This document shows, piece after piece, positions 6,145-36,774 of a stretch of DNA of 64,000 nucleotides. Position numbers and translations under genes: made by a program. The stretch is from Erwinia sp. ErVv1 (GTDB lineage Bacteria; Pseudomonadota; Gammaproteobacteria; Enterobacterales; Enterobacteriaceae): positions 125,976 to 189,975 of the forward strand of contig NZ_CDPK01000001.1 in assembly GCF_900068895.1 (NCBI RefSeq), written 5' to 3'. The notes beneath the pieces were generated by a model. It saw only the letters and a program-made list of their open reading frames with translations, did not search any database and had not been told where the DNA came from. How positions within the stretch are numbered: the first letter of the stretch is position 1; the number at the start of each line of letters is the position of its first letter.

Positions 6145-6226
6145 CTTTCTCTCCCAGGTAGGGCCACCTCAAGCCTTGATGACCTCATTAAACCATGCAT
6201 GTGTTATATGTTCTCATAGATAACGC

Positions 6227-7297
6227 TCATTTATTCTCTTCGTGATCCGGTTGGAGGTGCTCATTTACCCAGGCATTTTCTACCTGCTCAAGCCAAATCA
6301 AGATGTCAATGACCTCATCCAGTTCTTCCAGACTTACAAAAGAATATCTGCGATGTGATTTCAGTATACGTCGCGCCAGTTTAACGTTCTCCACCACCGG
6401 TACCCCCACTTTCTCAGCGTAGGCACGTACTGCAAGTGCCCGCTGATTCTTCTCCAGTACCGAGATAAAAGGTATACCCACTACATCCCTATTCATATAG
6501 ATGCCCACGGCGATATGAGTGGGGTTAGCGATAATAACTTTGGAATTATTAATATCAGATTTAACCTGTTCAGAAAGCAATTCCATATGAAGTTCTTTAC
6601 GTCTGGCTTTGATTTCCGGATCACCATCCTGTTCTTTGTATTCTCTTTTTACCTCCTGCTTTTCCATTTTGAGATCTTTGATATGTAGAAAGTATTCTGC
6701 CAGGGCATCCAGAATTAACACCAATAGCGCACAGCTCAGGCACAATTCAACTAACGAGCTAAAGAGTTCACCCCATACAGGTAGAATATGCCGAGCAGTG
6801 CCGTTAACTTGAGAAAATATAGTAGACTTATTATTATTCCAGAATATGCTGGCGGCTGCGATAAAGCTTGTCAGGAACAGCGATGATTTAATAACGTCTT
6901 TAGCTGTTCGAAGGCTAAATAATTTCTTAAATCCATTGACAGGGTTTAGCGCACCAAAGTTGATTTTTAGTGCCTTACTGGCAAGCATAAATCCAGTTTG
7001 TAACAGAGTGGGCAAAGCTGACGCAGCCACACATAATATAAGAAATGGTAGGAATATTTTAACACCTGTCCACAGTACAGCCCGTGCATAACTTTCCATG
7101 TTATTCGTAAAGTTGTTTTCAATAATGCGGCGCCAAAAAAGCATAAGCTCCATAACATCAGAGAAATTAACAAGATACTGCACGCCAACCAGAATGAGGC
7201 AGGATATAATTAGATCTTTACTTTTGAAAGATTGCCCCTTCTTTGCGGCATCCTTTTTCTTTTTAGGGGTTGGTTTTTCTGTTTTACTCCCGGCCAT
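6227..7297 (-). CDS. spaS: SpaS (SctU) export switch protein
   Basis: 356 residues, the same length as Salmonella SpaS. FlhB/YscU-family inner-membrane protein of the export apparatus that switches substrate class after self-cleavage. The N-terminus is very basic (about residues 7-20). Four hydrophobic segments span roughly 27-215, followed by a charged linker and the cytoplasmic domain. The autocleavage motif NPTH is intact at residues 258-261, the same numbering as in Salmonella, with the upstream strand SKVIIA. It follows spaR after 34 bases and ends the core apparatus operon before sicA. Confidence 0.96.
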   Translation of the reverse strand: MAGSKTEKPTPKKKKDAAKKGQSFKSKDLIISCLILVGVQYLVNFSDVMELMLFWRRIIENNFTNNMESYARAVLWTGVKIFLPFLILCVAASALPTLLQTGFMLASKALKINFGALNPVNGFKKLFSLRTAKDVIKSSLFLTSFIAAASIFWNNNKSTIFSQVNGTARHILPVWGELFSSLVELCLSCALLVLILDALAEYFLHIKDLKMEKQEVKREYKEQDGDPEIKARRKELHMELLSEQVKSDINNSKVIIANPTHIAVGIYMNRDVVGIPFISVLEKNQRALAVRAYAEKVGVPVVENVKLARRILKSHRRYSFVSLEELDEVIDILIWLEQVENAWVNEHLQPDHEENK

Positions 7298-7331
7298 TAA
7301 TCTCTCCTCATAATAAGAATCTTTCAGCTTA

Positions 7332-8105
7332 TTAGAAAATTTTACCTGACCAGCCAGTTAGCGTATCAGGGAGCAATTCCAACAATATAATTTTCCCCGG
7401 CAATACTGGTGTGAAATAGATAAGTAATAAAAAGAAAGCAATTATACTCTTCACCGTCAGTGCCAACGCAAACGCATTTAACTGGGGAGCAAATCGTGCC
7501 AGCAGTCCCAGACATAATTCCGAAAGTAAAAAAACAACAATGAGTGGACTGGCCAGAATAAAGGCATTCCTGACCATCAAACTCAGGAATTCCAATACAA
7601 CATTAAGGGCTGGCATACTTAATTGGTAGGGTTCCCACAGTAGATAACTCTTTTCAAATACTTCTAGCATGATAAGTAAGCCACCATTTTGTAATACCAC
7701 CACGGCAGCAAACAAATTAAAAAAGTTGGCCAGCTCAGAAGTATCGACACCCGATAAGGGATCGATACTACTACTCAAAGTCGCTCCTCGTTGGTTATCA
7801 ATAAAACTACCTGCTGCATGTAACACCCAACATGGCAGACAGAGGAAAAAGGCAATGATAAGACCTACGGCCAGCTCTTTTCCGATGAGGGTTAAAAACC
7901 AAATATTATCATAATCAGCAACAGGCCCCCCGGCATGTGGCCACAATCCAACACCCACGAGCATCGCCACGGGCAGCCTGATTGCACCCGTCAATGTATT
8001 AGTATTGAAGAAAGGCAATAAAATAAAAGCGGGCATTAGTCGGGCGGAGACCATTGCCATTTCGTATAGCCAGGTATGTACATTAAAAAATAATGCAGTA
8101 GACAT
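7332..8105 (-). CDS. spaR: SpaR (SctT) export apparatus membrane protein
   Basis: 257 residues (Salmonella SpaR 263). FliR-family subunit of the SpaPQR export gate, mostly hydrophobic with about six or seven membrane segments. Family landmarks include the LPFFNTNTLTGAIRLPVAM region near residue 31 and the LSSSIDPLSGVDTSELANFF stretch in the middle, which corresponds to the conserved Q-x-G/D region of FliR proteins. Its start codon lies 2 bases after the spaQ stop, so the two are translationally coupled. Confidence 0.95.
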   Translation of the reverse strand: MSTALFFNVHTWLYEMAMVSARLMPAFILLPFFNTNTLTGAIRLPVAMLVGVGLWPHAGGPVADYDNIWFLTLIGKELAVGLIIAFFLCLPCWVLHAAGSFIDNQRGATLSSSIDPLSGVDTSELANFFNLFAAVVVLQNGGLLIMLEVFEKSYLLWEPYQLSMPALNVVLEFLSLMVRNAFILASPLIVVFLLSELCLGLLARFAPQLNAFALALTVKSIIAFFLLLIYFTPVLPGKIILLELLPDTLTGWSGKIF

Positions 8106-8107
8106 CT

Positions 8108-8365
8108 TTAACGAACCAATGCCATGCGGATTACCTCACGTGAAAAACTCACCAGCACATCGCCATACCAGCCCGCGACCAGAAACAAACATAAGGTCAC
8201 GCTTAATAGTTTCAGACCAAAGGGCAGCGTTTGCTCCTGCAGTTGTGTGACCGTCTGAAAAAGGCCAACTAAAAGTCCTACTATCGTCGCAACCCCTATG
8301 GGTAAAGCGGAAAGCATCAATATCAGATAGAGCGCTTTATTGCCTGCAAAAGTAATTTCGTTCAT
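8108..8365 (-). CDS. spaQ: SpaQ (SctS) export apparatus membrane protein
   Basis: 85 residues, as expected for FliQ-family proteins (SpaQ 86). It has two membrane helices (about 12-34 and 50-72) joined by a loop containing [17 protein letters not shown], the FliQ signature that packs against SpaP. It lies between spaP and spaR, with 16 bases to spaP and 2 to spaR. It forms the inner-membrane export gate with those two. Confidence 0.95.
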
Positions 8366-8381
8366 AGTTTAGTCCGACTTA

Positions 8382-9047
8382 TCAGGAGGCCAGCTCTATA
8401 TACTGCAGTATTAGGCCTTTTGATAATAAGGTCCAACCATCCAGCACGACGAAAAGCACAAGCTTAATAGGCACAGAAATAGTTACCGGACTCATCATCA
8501 TCATCCCCAGAGCCAGTAATATACTGGAAATCAGCAGGTCAATAACGACAAAAGGTAAATAGAGATAAAATCCTATTTTGAAAGCACTCTTTATTTCGCT
8601 TAAGGCATATGCTGGTAGCAAAGAAAGAATAGACGCTCGCTGCTCTTCCTCAGCAGTCCCATTTTCCTGGCTATCGCGTTGACGTTGCACGTGTTCAAAG
8701 AAATTAACAAGCTCAGGATCGGAATGTTTTTCCAAATAATTACGATAGCTGTCCAACCCATGTTCAATAAAATAGGCCATAGACTGCGGATTATCCACAT
8801 CCTTTCCTGAATGCTGATACTCTTCATAGCCATTTTTGACCACGGGCATCATGACGAAAAACGCAAGAACCAGGGCAATGCCGTTCAACGTCATATTCGA
8901 TGGGATCTGCTGCAATCCCAGCGCATTACGTACCATGACAAATACAATAGAGAACTTAATATAACATGTACCACACGCGATGATAAAAGGGAGCAGCGTA
9001 GAGAATGCCAGCAGCGCTATAAGTGAGATATCATTACCTTGAACCAT
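8382..9047 (-). CDS. spaP: SpaP (SctR) export apparatus membrane protein
   Basis: 221 residues (SpaP 224) from the ATG at 9047. The open frame extends 25 codons further upstream into spaO, but family alignment starts at MVQGNDISLIALLAF. AAGAGG precedes this ATG at good spacing, and the overlap with spaO is then only 14 bases. FliP-family landmarks: a first helix, the conserved YIKFSIVFVMVRNALGLQQI segment with PSNMTLNGIA after it, and C-terminal helices with the LLALGMMMMSPVTISVPIKL signature. It is the core of the SpaPQR gate. Confidence 0.95.
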   Translation of the reverse strand: MVQGNDISLIALLAFSTLLPFIIACGTCYIKFSIVFVMVRNALGLQQIPSNMTLNGIALVLAFFVMMPVVKNGYEEYQHSGKDVDNPQSMAYFIEHGLDSYRNYLEKHSDPELVNFFEHVQRQRDSQENGTAEEEQRASILSLLPAYALSEIKSAFKIGFYLYLPFVVIDLLISSILLALGMMMMSPVTISVPIKLVLFVVLDGWTLLSKGLILQYIELAS

Positions 9048-9369
9048 CACTGGCCTCTTGATAAAGCTCTTTAATTTCAACTCCCATGCGATCTTCGATC
9101 CAAACCAGTTCACCGCGGGCAATCGCGGCGCCGTTCGCAGTGATTGTTACATTCTTTTCAGCATCTATTTGGCAAGGCAGCACTTCACCCTGATATAACG
9201 ATTCAAGCTGGCTAATGGAAAGTTTTTTTTGTTGCAGAACAAACCCCAGCCGAACTGATATTTTGTCGCAGGGAATGAGTCTTTCTGAATCGCTATTAAC
9301 GGATTCATCACCCAACGCCTCTTCCTCATATGCATCAGAAAGCATTTCCTCATTATCCTCTTTAAACAT
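9034..9369 (-). CDS. Candidate internal product SpaO-C from an in-frame start
   Basis: Within spaO an in-frame ATG (9369-9367) is preceded by AGGAAGG (9380-9374) with a 4-base spacer, a much better ribosome site than chance would give inside a coding region. The product would be 111 residues: the acidic linker plus the C-terminal SPOA domain. In Salmonella, Shigella and Yersinia the SctQ gene makes a short C-terminal product of about this size by internal initiation, and it joins full-length SctQ in the sorting platform. Salmonella uses a valine codon near residue 203; here the methionine lies at the equivalent place. A second weaker ATG follows at 9345. Translation from here is inferred. Confidence 0.6.
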   Translation of the reverse strand: MFKEDNEEMLSDAYEEEALGDESVNSDSERLIPCDKISVRLGFVLQQKKLSISQLESLYQGEVLPCQIDAEKNVTITANGAAIARGELVWIEDRMGVEIKELYQEASDGSR

Positions 9370-33513: not shown

Positions 33514-33537
33514 CGCTATATATAATCTTACATAGCG
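33514..33537 (+). promoter_or_regulatory. ModE (molybdate-responsive) operator overlapping a promoter
   Basis: CGCTATAT-n7-TACATAGCG, 24 bases. The E. coli modA operator is, from memory, CGTTATAT-n7-TACATAACG: the same length and spacing, with differences at the third base of each end that keep the palindrome symmetric. A perfect TATAAT (33521-33526) lies inside the box, so bound ModE would block RNA polymerase. The box lies 84 bases upstream of the receptor start and 90 bases from the divergent SRPBCC gene. Confidence 0.6.
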
Positions 33538-33620
33538 TTATGCTAATCTTTGCGCTCTTTTGACAGCATCCCCGGCGCAGTCGACCGTTCGAGTCGTCAC
33601 CGTCTCTTTAAGGTATCTAA

Positions 33621-35741
33621 ATGGCAGTGGTAAAAACGTCCCTGGTGGCAGGGAAAAGCGCGCTCTGCGTGTTAATTTGCTTTGCGCTACAGGCTCAGGC
33701 CGCCGCGCAGGACAAGACATTAACGGTAGAGGCTACCGCCCCCACCACGGAGGTTGCCGCCCCCGATAAGCAGGCAACGCTCGGTAATCTGGGTAAGCAG
33801 GCGGTACGCAATACGCCTTACTCGGTGCAGGTTATTTCGCCGGGACTGATGAAGCAGCAGCAGCTTAAGAGCGTCAGCGATATCTATCGCTATATGCCGT
33901 CCGTACAGGGCGATGGCGCCCGGCCCCAAACGCGCGGCATGCAGGGGAGCGTGGTGCAGAACTCGATGATCGACGGCTTAAACGTGGTATCCACCACTGA
34001 CTATGCCGCCGAACAGTTCGATCATATTGAAGTCCTGAATGGCCTTGCGGGTTCACTTTACGGCCCGGCCAACCCGGCAGGGCTGTTTAACTTTGTCGCT
34101 AAGCGTCCGACCGATATCGCGCAGCACAGCCTGACGGTGGGTGCGGGCACCGGCCTCAGCCATCTGGTGTCCGGCGACTTTAGCGGCCCGCTGGATGATA
34201 ACGATCGCCTGCGCTATCGCGCCAATTTCCTTGATGACGAGGGAAGCGGCTACGTTAGCGGCAGCAAAAAGCGCCGCCAGCTTTTCAGCCTGGCGCTGGA
34301 TGCTAACCTGAGCGATAAAACGGTGCTGGAGACTAACTTCAGCTACTACCATTTTTACGATAAAGGCCTGCCGGGAAAATTCGCGCTGGGTAGCGGGCTC
34401 TCTTTCCCCTCAGCACCGAACCCTAAAACAAAAAATCTTGGCCAGTACTATGCCGGGGACGATAATCATACGCTGACCGCCGGCCTGCACCTGAAGCATG
34501 ACTTTGACGGCAACTGGCAGGGCGAGGTGGGCGTACTGCGCCAGATTGCTGACCGCGAGTCCACGGCGGTCACCAATACCTTTACCGATAACCGCGGTCA
34601 TTACAAAACCACGACCTCCTCTGCCACCGCCAGCCGTTTTACGGTTAACAGCTATATGGCTAACCTGAATGGCGAAGTGGATACCGGCTGGCTGCATCAT
34701 CAGATTTCAACTGGCGTTCGCGGCTTTGTGCTGAAGAACGAAAATCCACGCAGCGGCGGCACATTCACGCTGGGCAGCGCCTCGCTGGATAATCCACAGG
34801 CCTTTGCCGAGCCGAATTACCCTGACTTTACCCGACGCTATCACTCGGCGACGGCCACGCAGCAGTCATTACTGCTCAGCGATACCCTGACCTTCTCCCC
34901 CCAGTGGAGCCTGCTGCTGGCGGGCAGCGAGAGTCTGCTTAACTCCGCCAACTACGCCAAAACCGGCAGCCGTACCAGCGAGTCCAGCGACAGCGGCTTT
35001 AGCGGGTCGGCCAGCCTGATGTATAAACCCGTCGATCCACTGACGCTGTACGTCACTTACGCAGACAGCCTGCAACAGGGCGATACCGCCCCCGCGGGTG
35101 CCAGCAACGCGGGCAATATTCTCTCTCCTTACCGCAGTAAGCAGGTGGAGGCTGGCAGCAAGCTGGCCGTGGGGAACGTGTTGCTAACCGCCGCCCTGTT
35201 CCAGATTGACCGTCCCTTTGCCTATACCACCACCCGTGGCGACTACGCGGTAGAGGGTAATCAGCGCAACCGCGGACTGGAGCTGATGGCCGACGGCGAC
35301 CTGAGCGATAATCTGCATCTTTACGGCGGCATGACGTGGCTCGACCCACGCCTGCGTGATACCGCCAGCACCCGCACCGAAGACAAGCAGATCACAGGTC
35401 TGGCACGCTATACCGCCAGCCTGTTCGCCGCCTGGGACCTGCCCTTTATTCGCGGTGCCGACCTGCACGGTGGCATGCGCTACGTAGGCCGACGCAGCAC
35501 CGACAATGCTAATGACAGCTGGGTGGGCAGCTACGCCACCTTTGACGCGGGCACGCGCTACAAAACCCGCCTGTTCAATACCGACACCACGTTCCGGCTG
35601 GATATGACCAATCTGACGAACCGCCACTACTGGACTAACATTGTGCCGGGTGGCCTGAATGGCTACAGCGGCGCGGGCTATGCCAGCGCGCAGATTGGTG
35701 AGCCGCGGATGGTGCAGGTTTCCATGCAGCTGAGTTTCTGA
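33621..35741 (+). CDS. TonB-dependent outer-membrane receptor
   Basis: 706 residues. Signal peptide (about 1-28, ending AQA), a TonB box-like DKTLTVEA right after it, a plug domain (about 45-165, with TRGMQGSVVQNSMIDGLNVV and the ...VLNGLAGSLYGPANPAGLFNFVAKRP signature of siderophore-type receptors) and a 22-strand barrel ending in the canonical C-terminal Phe. AAGG precedes the ATG at 7 bases. Cotranscribed with the binding-protein gene 7 bases downstream. No Fur box is visible; instead a ModE-type operator covers the promoter. This points to molybdate/tungstate or a molybdenum-chelate as ligand rather than iron, an inference that needs testing. Confidence 0.93.
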   Translation: MAVVKTSLVAGKSALCVLICFALQAQAAAQDKTLTVEATAPTTEVAAPDKQATLGNLGKQAVRNTPYSVQVISPGLMKQQQLKSVSDIYRYMPSVQGDGARPQTRGMQGSVVQNSMIDGLNVVSTTDYAAEQFDHIEVLNGLAGSLYGPANPAGLFNFVAKRPTDIAQHSLTVGAGTGLSHLVSGDFSGPLDDNDRLRYRANFLDDEGSGYVSGSKKRRQLFSLALDANLSDKTVLETNFSYYHFYDKGLPGKFALGSGLSFPSAPNPKTKNLGQYYAGDDNHTLTAGLHLKHDFDGNWQGEVGVLRQIADRESTAVTNTFTDNRGHYKTTTSSATASRFTVNSYMANLNGEVDTGWLHHQISTGVRGFVLKNENPRSGGTFTLGSASLDNPQAFAEPNYPDFTRRYHSATATQQSLLLSDTLTFSPQWSLLLAGSESLLNSANYAKTGSRTSESSDSGFSGSASLMYKPVDPLTLYVTYADSLQQGDTAPAGASNAGNILSPYRSKQVEAGSKLAVGNVLLTAALFQIDRPFAYTTTRGDYAVEGNQRNRGLELMADGDLSDNLHLYGGMTWLDPRLRDTASTRTEDKQITGLARYTASLFAAWDLPFIRGADLHGGMRYVGRRSTDNANDSWVGSYATFDAGTRYKTRLFNTDTTFRLDMTNLTNRHYWTNIVPGGLNGYSGAGYASAQIGEPRMVQVSMQLSF

Positions 35742-35748
35742 TGAGGAT

Positions 35749-36774
35749 ATGATGAAAAAGCGTCTGATTTTGCCGCTGCTGGCGGCACTGAGCCTGACGG
35801 CGGTCAGCCACGCCACGGTTGCCCGCACGGTGACGGATGATGGAGGGAACCGGGTTGAGGTGCCGCAGGAAGCGCATCGCATTGCCGATGCCTGGTATGC
35901 ACATCATTCCTTGCTGATGACGCTTGGGGCGGGCGATCGCATCGTCGCCACGGTCAATCATCCCCAGGACCGGCCCTGGATGTTCAAAATCCAGCCCTCT
36001 CTGAATCAGGCGCTGTCGGTGCATGGCCGCAGCTTTGAAAGCGAGGCGCTGCTGGCGCGTAAGGTCGATGTGGTTTTTGTACCCGCCGAAGATGCCGATG
36101 CTGCCGCCTATCGCCAGGCGGGTCTGCCGACGCTGGTAATGCGCTTTGATGATTTCCCGTCGATGAAGCGCTCACTGCTGACCACTGCTGAAGTTATCGG
36201 CAGCGACGACGCCAGGCAGCGCGCAAAAGCGTATAACGCCTGGCTCGACGGCGAGATAGCGGCCATCAGTGCGAAAACCGCCAGCCTGACCGAGGCCCAG
36301 CGCCCGCGCGTCCTGCATATTCAGTCGCTTCATCCCCTTAAGGTCGACGGTCGCAATACGCTGATTGATACCTGGATTAAACTGGCGGGCGGGCGCAACG
36401 CGGCGGCGGAGGTGGAAGGCAATATGAAGGAAACCTCGCCGGAGAACGTCCTGTTCTGGCAGCCGGATATCATCATCATCGGTGCCGGTGCGGGCACCAT
36501 AGAGGCGTCGGACTATGCTTCGCTGTTCAGCAATCTTAACGCGGTGAAAAACCATCAGGTATTCCAGAATCCGGCCGGGGTATTCCCCTGGGATCGCTAC
36601 GGCACCGAGGCCGCGCTGCAAATCCAGTGGGCCGCTAAGCTGCTGCATCCGGCGCTGTTTAAAGACCTGGATATGGTGAAAGCGACGCAGGATTTCTATC
36701 ATCGCTTCTTTAACTACGATCTGAACAAAACCCAGGCAGCAAGGATTCTACAGGGCCAGGGGCCAGAGAACTAA
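35749..36774 (+). CDS. Periplasmic binding protein of the siderophore/B12/MolA class
   Basis: 341 residues. Signal peptide (about 1-27, MKKRLILPLLAALSLTAVSHA with two adjacent ATG codons at the start), then a class III (FepB/BtuF type) fold: DDGGNRVEVPQEAHRIAD, ARKVDVVFVP, ENVLFWQPDIIIIGAG and the long central helix. This class includes H. influenzae MolA, which binds molybdate and tungstate. The gene follows the receptor after 7 bases. No permease or ATPase gene follows, so it would have to borrow an inner-membrane transporter encoded elsewhere. Confidence 0.85.
   Translation: MMKKRLILPLLAALSLTAVSHATVARTVTDDGGNRVEVPQEAHRIADAWYAHHSLLMTLGAGDRIVATVNHPQDRPWMFKIQPSLNQALSVHGRSFESEALLARKVDVVFVPAEDADAAAYRQAGLPTLVMRFDDFPSMKRSLLTTAEVIGSDDARQRAKAYNAWLDGEIAAISAKTASLTEAQRPRVLHIQSLHPLKVDGRNTLIDTWIKLAGGRNAAAEVEGNMKETSPENVLFWQPDIIIIGAGAGTIEASDYASLFSNLNAVKNHQVFQNPAGVFPWDRYGTEAALQIQWAAKLLHPALFKDLDMVKATQDFYHRFFNYDLNKTQAARILQGQGPEN

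Follow-up and report, generated by a model that had tools for sequence, protein, structure and literature searches.

A TonB-dependent receptor and binding protein behind a predicted ModE operator in Erwinia: a candidate route for molybdenum across the outer membrane

The window analysed here, a 64,000-nucleotide (64-kb) stretch of the 4.7-Mb genome of Erwinia sp. ErVv1, encodes a TonB-dependent outer-membrane receptor (P0001) and a periplasmic binding protein (P0002) behind a predicted operator for the regulator ModE. This pair most probably represents the outer-membrane and periplasmic half of a ModE-repressed, TonB-dependent molybdenum import system. Control of the pair by ModE is very likely, and a role in molybdenum acquisition is likely; from operator-like sequence, its conservation, gene content and homology we infer ModE binding, repression, the ligand and its hand-over. 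If this proposal is correct, some bacteria import molybdenum actively across the outer membrane, where leakage through porins is usually assumed. Molybdenum would then join the metals actively taken up across this membrane, and ordinary enterobacteria may exploit molybdenum chelates.

Results

The predicted operator and the receptor pair

The predicted operator, CGCTATATATAATCTTACATAGCG (33514-33537, no strand assigned), agrees at 15 of 16 positions with the E. coli-type ModE consensus, published as CGNTATATA-N6-TATATANCG (PMC545781); all site scores out of 16 below count agreement with this consensus. Read as a palindrome, the 24-mer pairs at 9 of 12 positions. These values bear out a first-pass annotation, made from the sequence alone, that had described a ModE-like 24-base palindrome before the receptor. 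The likeness to the E. coli modA operator appears through the published consensus and the modA site of the same genome, rather than through direct comparison. With no mismatches, the pattern CGNTATATN7TACATANCG matches the window solely at 33514-33537; with up to two, there are three matches (the 33514 site on both strands, and 6202), as compared to 0.05 expected. Across the whole genome, only the receptor-pair site and a site preceding moaA match with zero or one mismatch, and the modA site is among the two-mismatch matches.

Two possible promoter elements accompany the operator: TATAAT (33521-33526, plus strand), a possible -10 element within it, and TATGCTA (33539-33545, plus strand), a possible core promoter element directly 3' of it. 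When the window is aligned with five close relatives, the site and the downstream TATGnTA (five of the six sequences) are conserved islands in a diverged region; TATAAT (two of the six) is not. The perfect TATAAT remarked on in the first-pass annotation does lie inside the operator, but it carries little weight as a promoter and was rejected as weak evidence for one. No promoter scoring at least 9 of 12 was found at the front of the pair. The overlap of the predicted operator with the likely core promoter would fit repression by ModE-molybdate. The annotation had also seen no Fur box. Consistent with this, no 19-mer in the window lies within three mismatches of the box consensus, and the front of the pair scores 11 of 19, the commonest value among window tiles.

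The receptor P0001 (33621-35741, plus strand, 706 residues) contains Plug (PF07715) and barrel (PF00593) domains and belongs to the TIGR01783 siderophore-receptor subfamily (282.6 bits; cut-off 223.5). Its nearest solved receptors are FemA and BauA. Residues 32-38, KTLTVEA, resemble a TonB box by eye. The class III-type binding protein P0002 (35749-36774, plus strand, 341 residues; Peripla_BP_2, PF01497) follows in the same direction after a 7-base gap, and the two genes thus form the receptor-plus-binding-protein pair that had been claimed. The AlphaFold2 model of P0002 (predicted local distance difference test, pLDDT, 90.8) has as its top solved folds 4ovk, 4hn9, MolA 3psa and YiuA. P0002 shares both fold and homology with MolA (1.5e-13 to 3psa over part of its length; 26% identity by profile). 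It does not qualify as an orthologue of HI_1472, and MolA homologues are separate genes.

Conservation of the operator across loci

Forty-three loci from named genomes were picked solely by similarity to P0002, which makes the selection blind to the motif. Within 330-base test windows at the estimated operon front, and at a threshold of at least 13/16, a site is present at 36 of the 43: 35 assigned by script, plus L041, whose 14/16 site directly upstream of the permease was first sorted by the script among the controls and was reassigned by hand. Control windows before other genes of the same loci reach the threshold in 2 of 321 cases, both of which are the L041 site, and shuffled windows in 4 of 1290. 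These locus counts are uncorrected for kinship, and related genomes are not independent. At three Pseudomonas loci (L039, L040 and L050), the site is found directly upstream of the open frame, where extrapolation places the start of the permease. The siteless loci are L024 (a receptor remnant), L037 (cut by the contig), L038 (12/16), L042 from Azotobacter (11/16), L044 from Clostridium (12/16), L048 from an archaeon (9) and L049 (10).

A family-wide search added 10 genomes. Once two loci already represented in the named set are put aside, eight remain, and seven of these, all but L110, are preceded by a site scoring 14/16 or more. Motif conservation in orthologues had been set beforehand as the test by which the proposal could fall, and both sets of loci speak for it. 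Stand-alone binding proteins with no adjacent receptor retain the site at L012, L032, L108, L112 and the stop-bearing L117; at L110, also stand-alone, it is not kept. A receptor relative was not found in 3 of the 11 P0002-bearing genomes, so P0002 may serve other routes too.

Gene arrangements in relatives

Arrangements read by tblastn fall into four main types. The receptor is followed by the substrate-binding protein (SBP) in the window, Erwinia, Winslowiella, Pantoea, Rouxiella, Tatumella and others. Rahnella, Pseudomonas and Azotobacter beijerinckii have a permease-ATPase-receptor-SBP operon; among the loci with this order, a site precedes the permease at all three from Rahnella and at four of the five from Pseudomonas, and not in Azotobacter. 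All four Citrobacter loci have the order site-receptor-SBP-site-MolA-MolB-ATPase, with sites of 15-16/16, and of 14/16 at the MolA start. In Chimaeribacter (three loci), receptor and SBP are divergent, with one or two sites between them.

The second SBP of Citrobacter matches HI_1472 with E 1.6e-133 and is thereby a homologue of MolA, and the permease beside it is nearest to MolB (9.8e-97; next 6.6e-51). The relationship to MolA is thus closer than the first-pass annotation had proposed, since the Citrobacter pair adjoins homologues of both MolA and MolB. The best solved match of the Rahnella and Azotobacter permeases is likewise MolB HI1471 (7e-60 and 5e-58; next 5e-45 and 4e-45). The Rahnella ATPase is not specifically MolC-like, and FhuC ranks first. 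In Clostridium tyrobutyricum, a permease-ATPase-SBP set lies three genes from the flavin adenine dinucleotide (FAD) subunit of a molybdenum hydroxylase, with an adenine deaminase also nearby.

More distant receptors

At 1e-100, 16 plasmid records match the receptor. The receptor itself is plasmid-borne in Pantoea and Chimaeribacter, and Pseudomonas silvicola has it in fragments; relatives of 41-45% identity are found on plasmids of Methylocystis, Polymorphobacter, Paracoccus, Cronobacter condimenti and Pantoea At-9b, and an E. coli plasmid holds a broken copy of one. ModE-like sites of the form CGTAATATAA..., scoring 14-15/16, precede the receptor in Cronobacter, At-9b (pPAT9B03), the E. coli plasmid and two further genomes. 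In At-9b, a MolA-like gene and a ModA-type gene, the latter below curated cut-offs, diverge from the receptor, and the intervening region holds two 14/16 sites. The gene next to the Methylocystis and Polymorphobacter receptors (42-44%) encodes a ModA-type protein that lies above the TIGR01256 cut-off and below that of the closest NCBIfam equivalog; no ModE-like site is found in front of these receptors, which group together in a tree. There, all 32 family receptors form one clade as compared to three other receptors; the outgroup branches are long, and only the separation of the clade is used here.

Several other loci deserve mention in their own right. In Paracoccus (L078, L097), a 41% receptor with permease, ATPase and SBP is preceded by the palindrome CGATATG...CATATCG, which may be a form of the operator particular to Alphaproteobacteria. 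Loci L081-L087 (same order, genomes of 2-2.7 Mb) contain P0002-like SBPs of 35-39% identity, mostly in permease-ATPase-SBP sets, and several have a second SBP-permease(-ATPase) set nearby with twin ModE-like sites. In L086, a 15/16 site lies directly upstream of a gene that matches the receptor at 27%.

MolA homologues in the family

Of 198 family genomes, 56 contain a MolA homologue; 18 of these, hand-chosen to span the list, were examined. A site of at least 13/16 lies at or near the MolA start in 17 of the 18, L176 being without one. No MolB homologue was detected at 7 of the 18 (L166, L177-L182), which makes a binding protein without its own permease a recurrent pattern. Four genes tested from MolA operons encode ModA-type proteins with no evident signal peptide at the start, as judged by eye. 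MolA is found in 6 of 11 P0002 genomes as compared to 50 of 187 others, if the two 198-genome draws are taken as the same; this co-occurrence is suggestive only.

At L177:6097-7979, L178:6021-7861 and L181:6001-7736, a ModE-like site is followed by MolA with no detected MolB and then by a ModA-type protein that seems to be without a signal peptide. At L171:7880-10156, in a relative, a different TonB receptor (~23-25% identity) lies directly upstream of a MolA-permease-ATPase set.

ModE and transport genes of the Erwinia genome

The genome encodes one ModE (TIGR00637, 125.5 bits, above cut-off). Its gene is divergent from modA, with a 14/16 site in between, and the site preceding moaA scores 16/16 (modA and moaA named from translation). 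Among the seven Plug-domain receptors of the genome, only P0001 stands at a ModE-like site within two mismatches.

No permease or ATPase adjoins the pair, as the first-pass annotation had stated, nor does any MolB or MolC homologue. At 1e-30, the genome yields no MolA homologue and no close MolB, only two FecCD permeases that are 33% and 41% identical to P0003. The FecCD permeases above 100 bits include two that we take, by gene order, to be BtuC (BtuC-BtuE-BtuD order) and FhuB. The others are a C12 permease beside another receptor and a C1 SBP-permease-permease-ATPase set; five weaker PF01032 matches reach 28-41 bits. A dedicated permease for the pair was considered here and rejected, as no FecCD permease above 100 bits has a ModE-like site within two mismatches. 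The forecast that a transport partner would be required fits the four-gene operons of Rahnella, Pseudomonas and Azotobacter; this genome is without MolA and a close MolB.

On C1 (L091:3099-6414), a further TonB receptor is paired with an SBP; this pair lacks a ModE-like site, and the 8 kb examined contain no FecCD permease. In the window, the weaker ModE-like match at 6202-6225 (two mismatches) lies between type III secretion genes and was set aside as probably due to chance; positions 6227-9122 on the minus strand belong to a cluster of type III secretion genes, as recognised from translations.

Discussion

Proposed mechanism

At high cytoplasmic molybdate, ModE-molybdate would occupy 33514-33537 and so keep the overlapping promoter silent. 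Under molybdenum scarcity, the receptor would draw its cargo into the periplasm; a small molybdenum chelate is more likely than molybdate itself, and tungstate is a further possibility. There, the MolA-related P0002 would take the cargo over. Transport could be finished in Rahnella, Pseudomonas and Azotobacter by the ATPase and the MolB-like FecCD permease encoded in the same operon, and in Citrobacter the adjoining MolA, MolB and ATPase would be available. Since no such permease was found in the Erwinia genome, the cargo would have to use an FecCD permease that also serves another system, such as BtuCD or FhuBC, or else be left to ModABC after its release.

The preference for a chelate over the free oxyanion is a weak argument: the receptor is kin to siderophore receptors, and the operon occurs in a species of Azotobacter, a genus in which catechol chelators are known, as described for A. 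vinelandii (PMC10669500). The chances seem about even that a broader picture holds, in which a distinct family of TonB receptors, patchy in its distribution, does for molybdenum what siderophore receptors do for iron. Its cargo would probably be a metallophore complex, ModE would govern it in Enterobacterales and Pseudomonas, its periplasmic partners would be interchangeable (MolA-like, P0002-like, ModA-like), and orphan pairs would feed a shared inner-membrane transporter or ModABC.

Alternative explanations

The main competitor, which we consider unlikely, is that the cargo of the receptor is a ferric or mixed-metal siderophore and that ModE merely coordinates its import with molybdenum need, for instance because the siderophore also binds molybdate. 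Membership of TIGR01783, FemA and BauA as nearest solved receptors, and the closeness of the P0002 fold to YiuA all weigh on its side. However, no Fur box is seen at the pair, ModE-like sites are kept across genera, and the genes that recur nearby encode MolA/MolB, ModA-type proteins and a subunit of a molybdenum hydroxylase, in flanks not systematically searched for siderophore synthesis. A quite improbable variant would be uptake of tungstate (or vanadate), with ModE sensing a related oxyanion. In its favour, MolA is reported to bind tungstate as well as molybdate (PMC4031551); the ModA-type and molybdenum-hydroxylase neighbours favour molybdenum, with no specific search made for tungsten enzymes.

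Two further readings have very little probability. If the ligand were a purine or another molybdoenzyme substrate, the molybdenum link would run via xanthine dehydrogenase. The hydroxylase subunit and adenine deaminase of C. tyrobutyricum would suit that reading, yet MolB-type permeases and ModA/MolA neighbours occur elsewhere, and an operator overlapping the promoter would presumably stop uptake just when molybdoenzymes are active. Nor does a chance AT-rich match, leaving the pair outside ModE control, seem credible. The intergenic region is indeed AT-rich, and a reversed control pattern has 4 whole-genome matches with up to two mismatches; however, sites at 36 of 43 and 7 of 8 loci as compared to 2 of 321 controls, together with the footprint islands in an otherwise diverged region, argue for a maintained operator.

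Comparison with known systems

Within the literature covered, a search found no ModE-controlled or molybdenum-specific TonB receptor, and an earlier prediction is possible. The molybdenum import proposed here resembles ModABC of Enterobacteria in its operator type and in the presence of ModE in the same genome; unlike the receptor pair, ModABC has no outer-membrane step, and in Salmonella porins are regarded as the entry route of molybdate into the periplasm (PMC8264917). MolABC (MolBC-A, the Haemophilus influenzae HI1472-HI1471-HI1470 molybdate importer) is described without an outer-membrane receptor in the sections of the literature available; in contrast to that system, P0002 is no MolA orthologue, its binding loop differs, and its genome is without MolA and a close MolB.

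The siderophore receptors FemA, BauA and FhuA share with P0001 the Plug and barrel and the TIGR01783 subfamily, but P0001 has a ModE-like operator, no Fur box, and molybdenum-transport neighbours in relatives. P0002 is 20-22% identical to YiuA, the iron-catechol binding protein of Yersinia ruckeri, whose ligand is given by entry titles. For the type VI secretion system (T6SS)-ModA-IcmP route of Pseudomonas aeruginosa, active transport of molybdate across the outer membrane is likewise proposed (PMC9769707, PMC8602904); that route, unlike the receptor pair, depends on secreted ModA.
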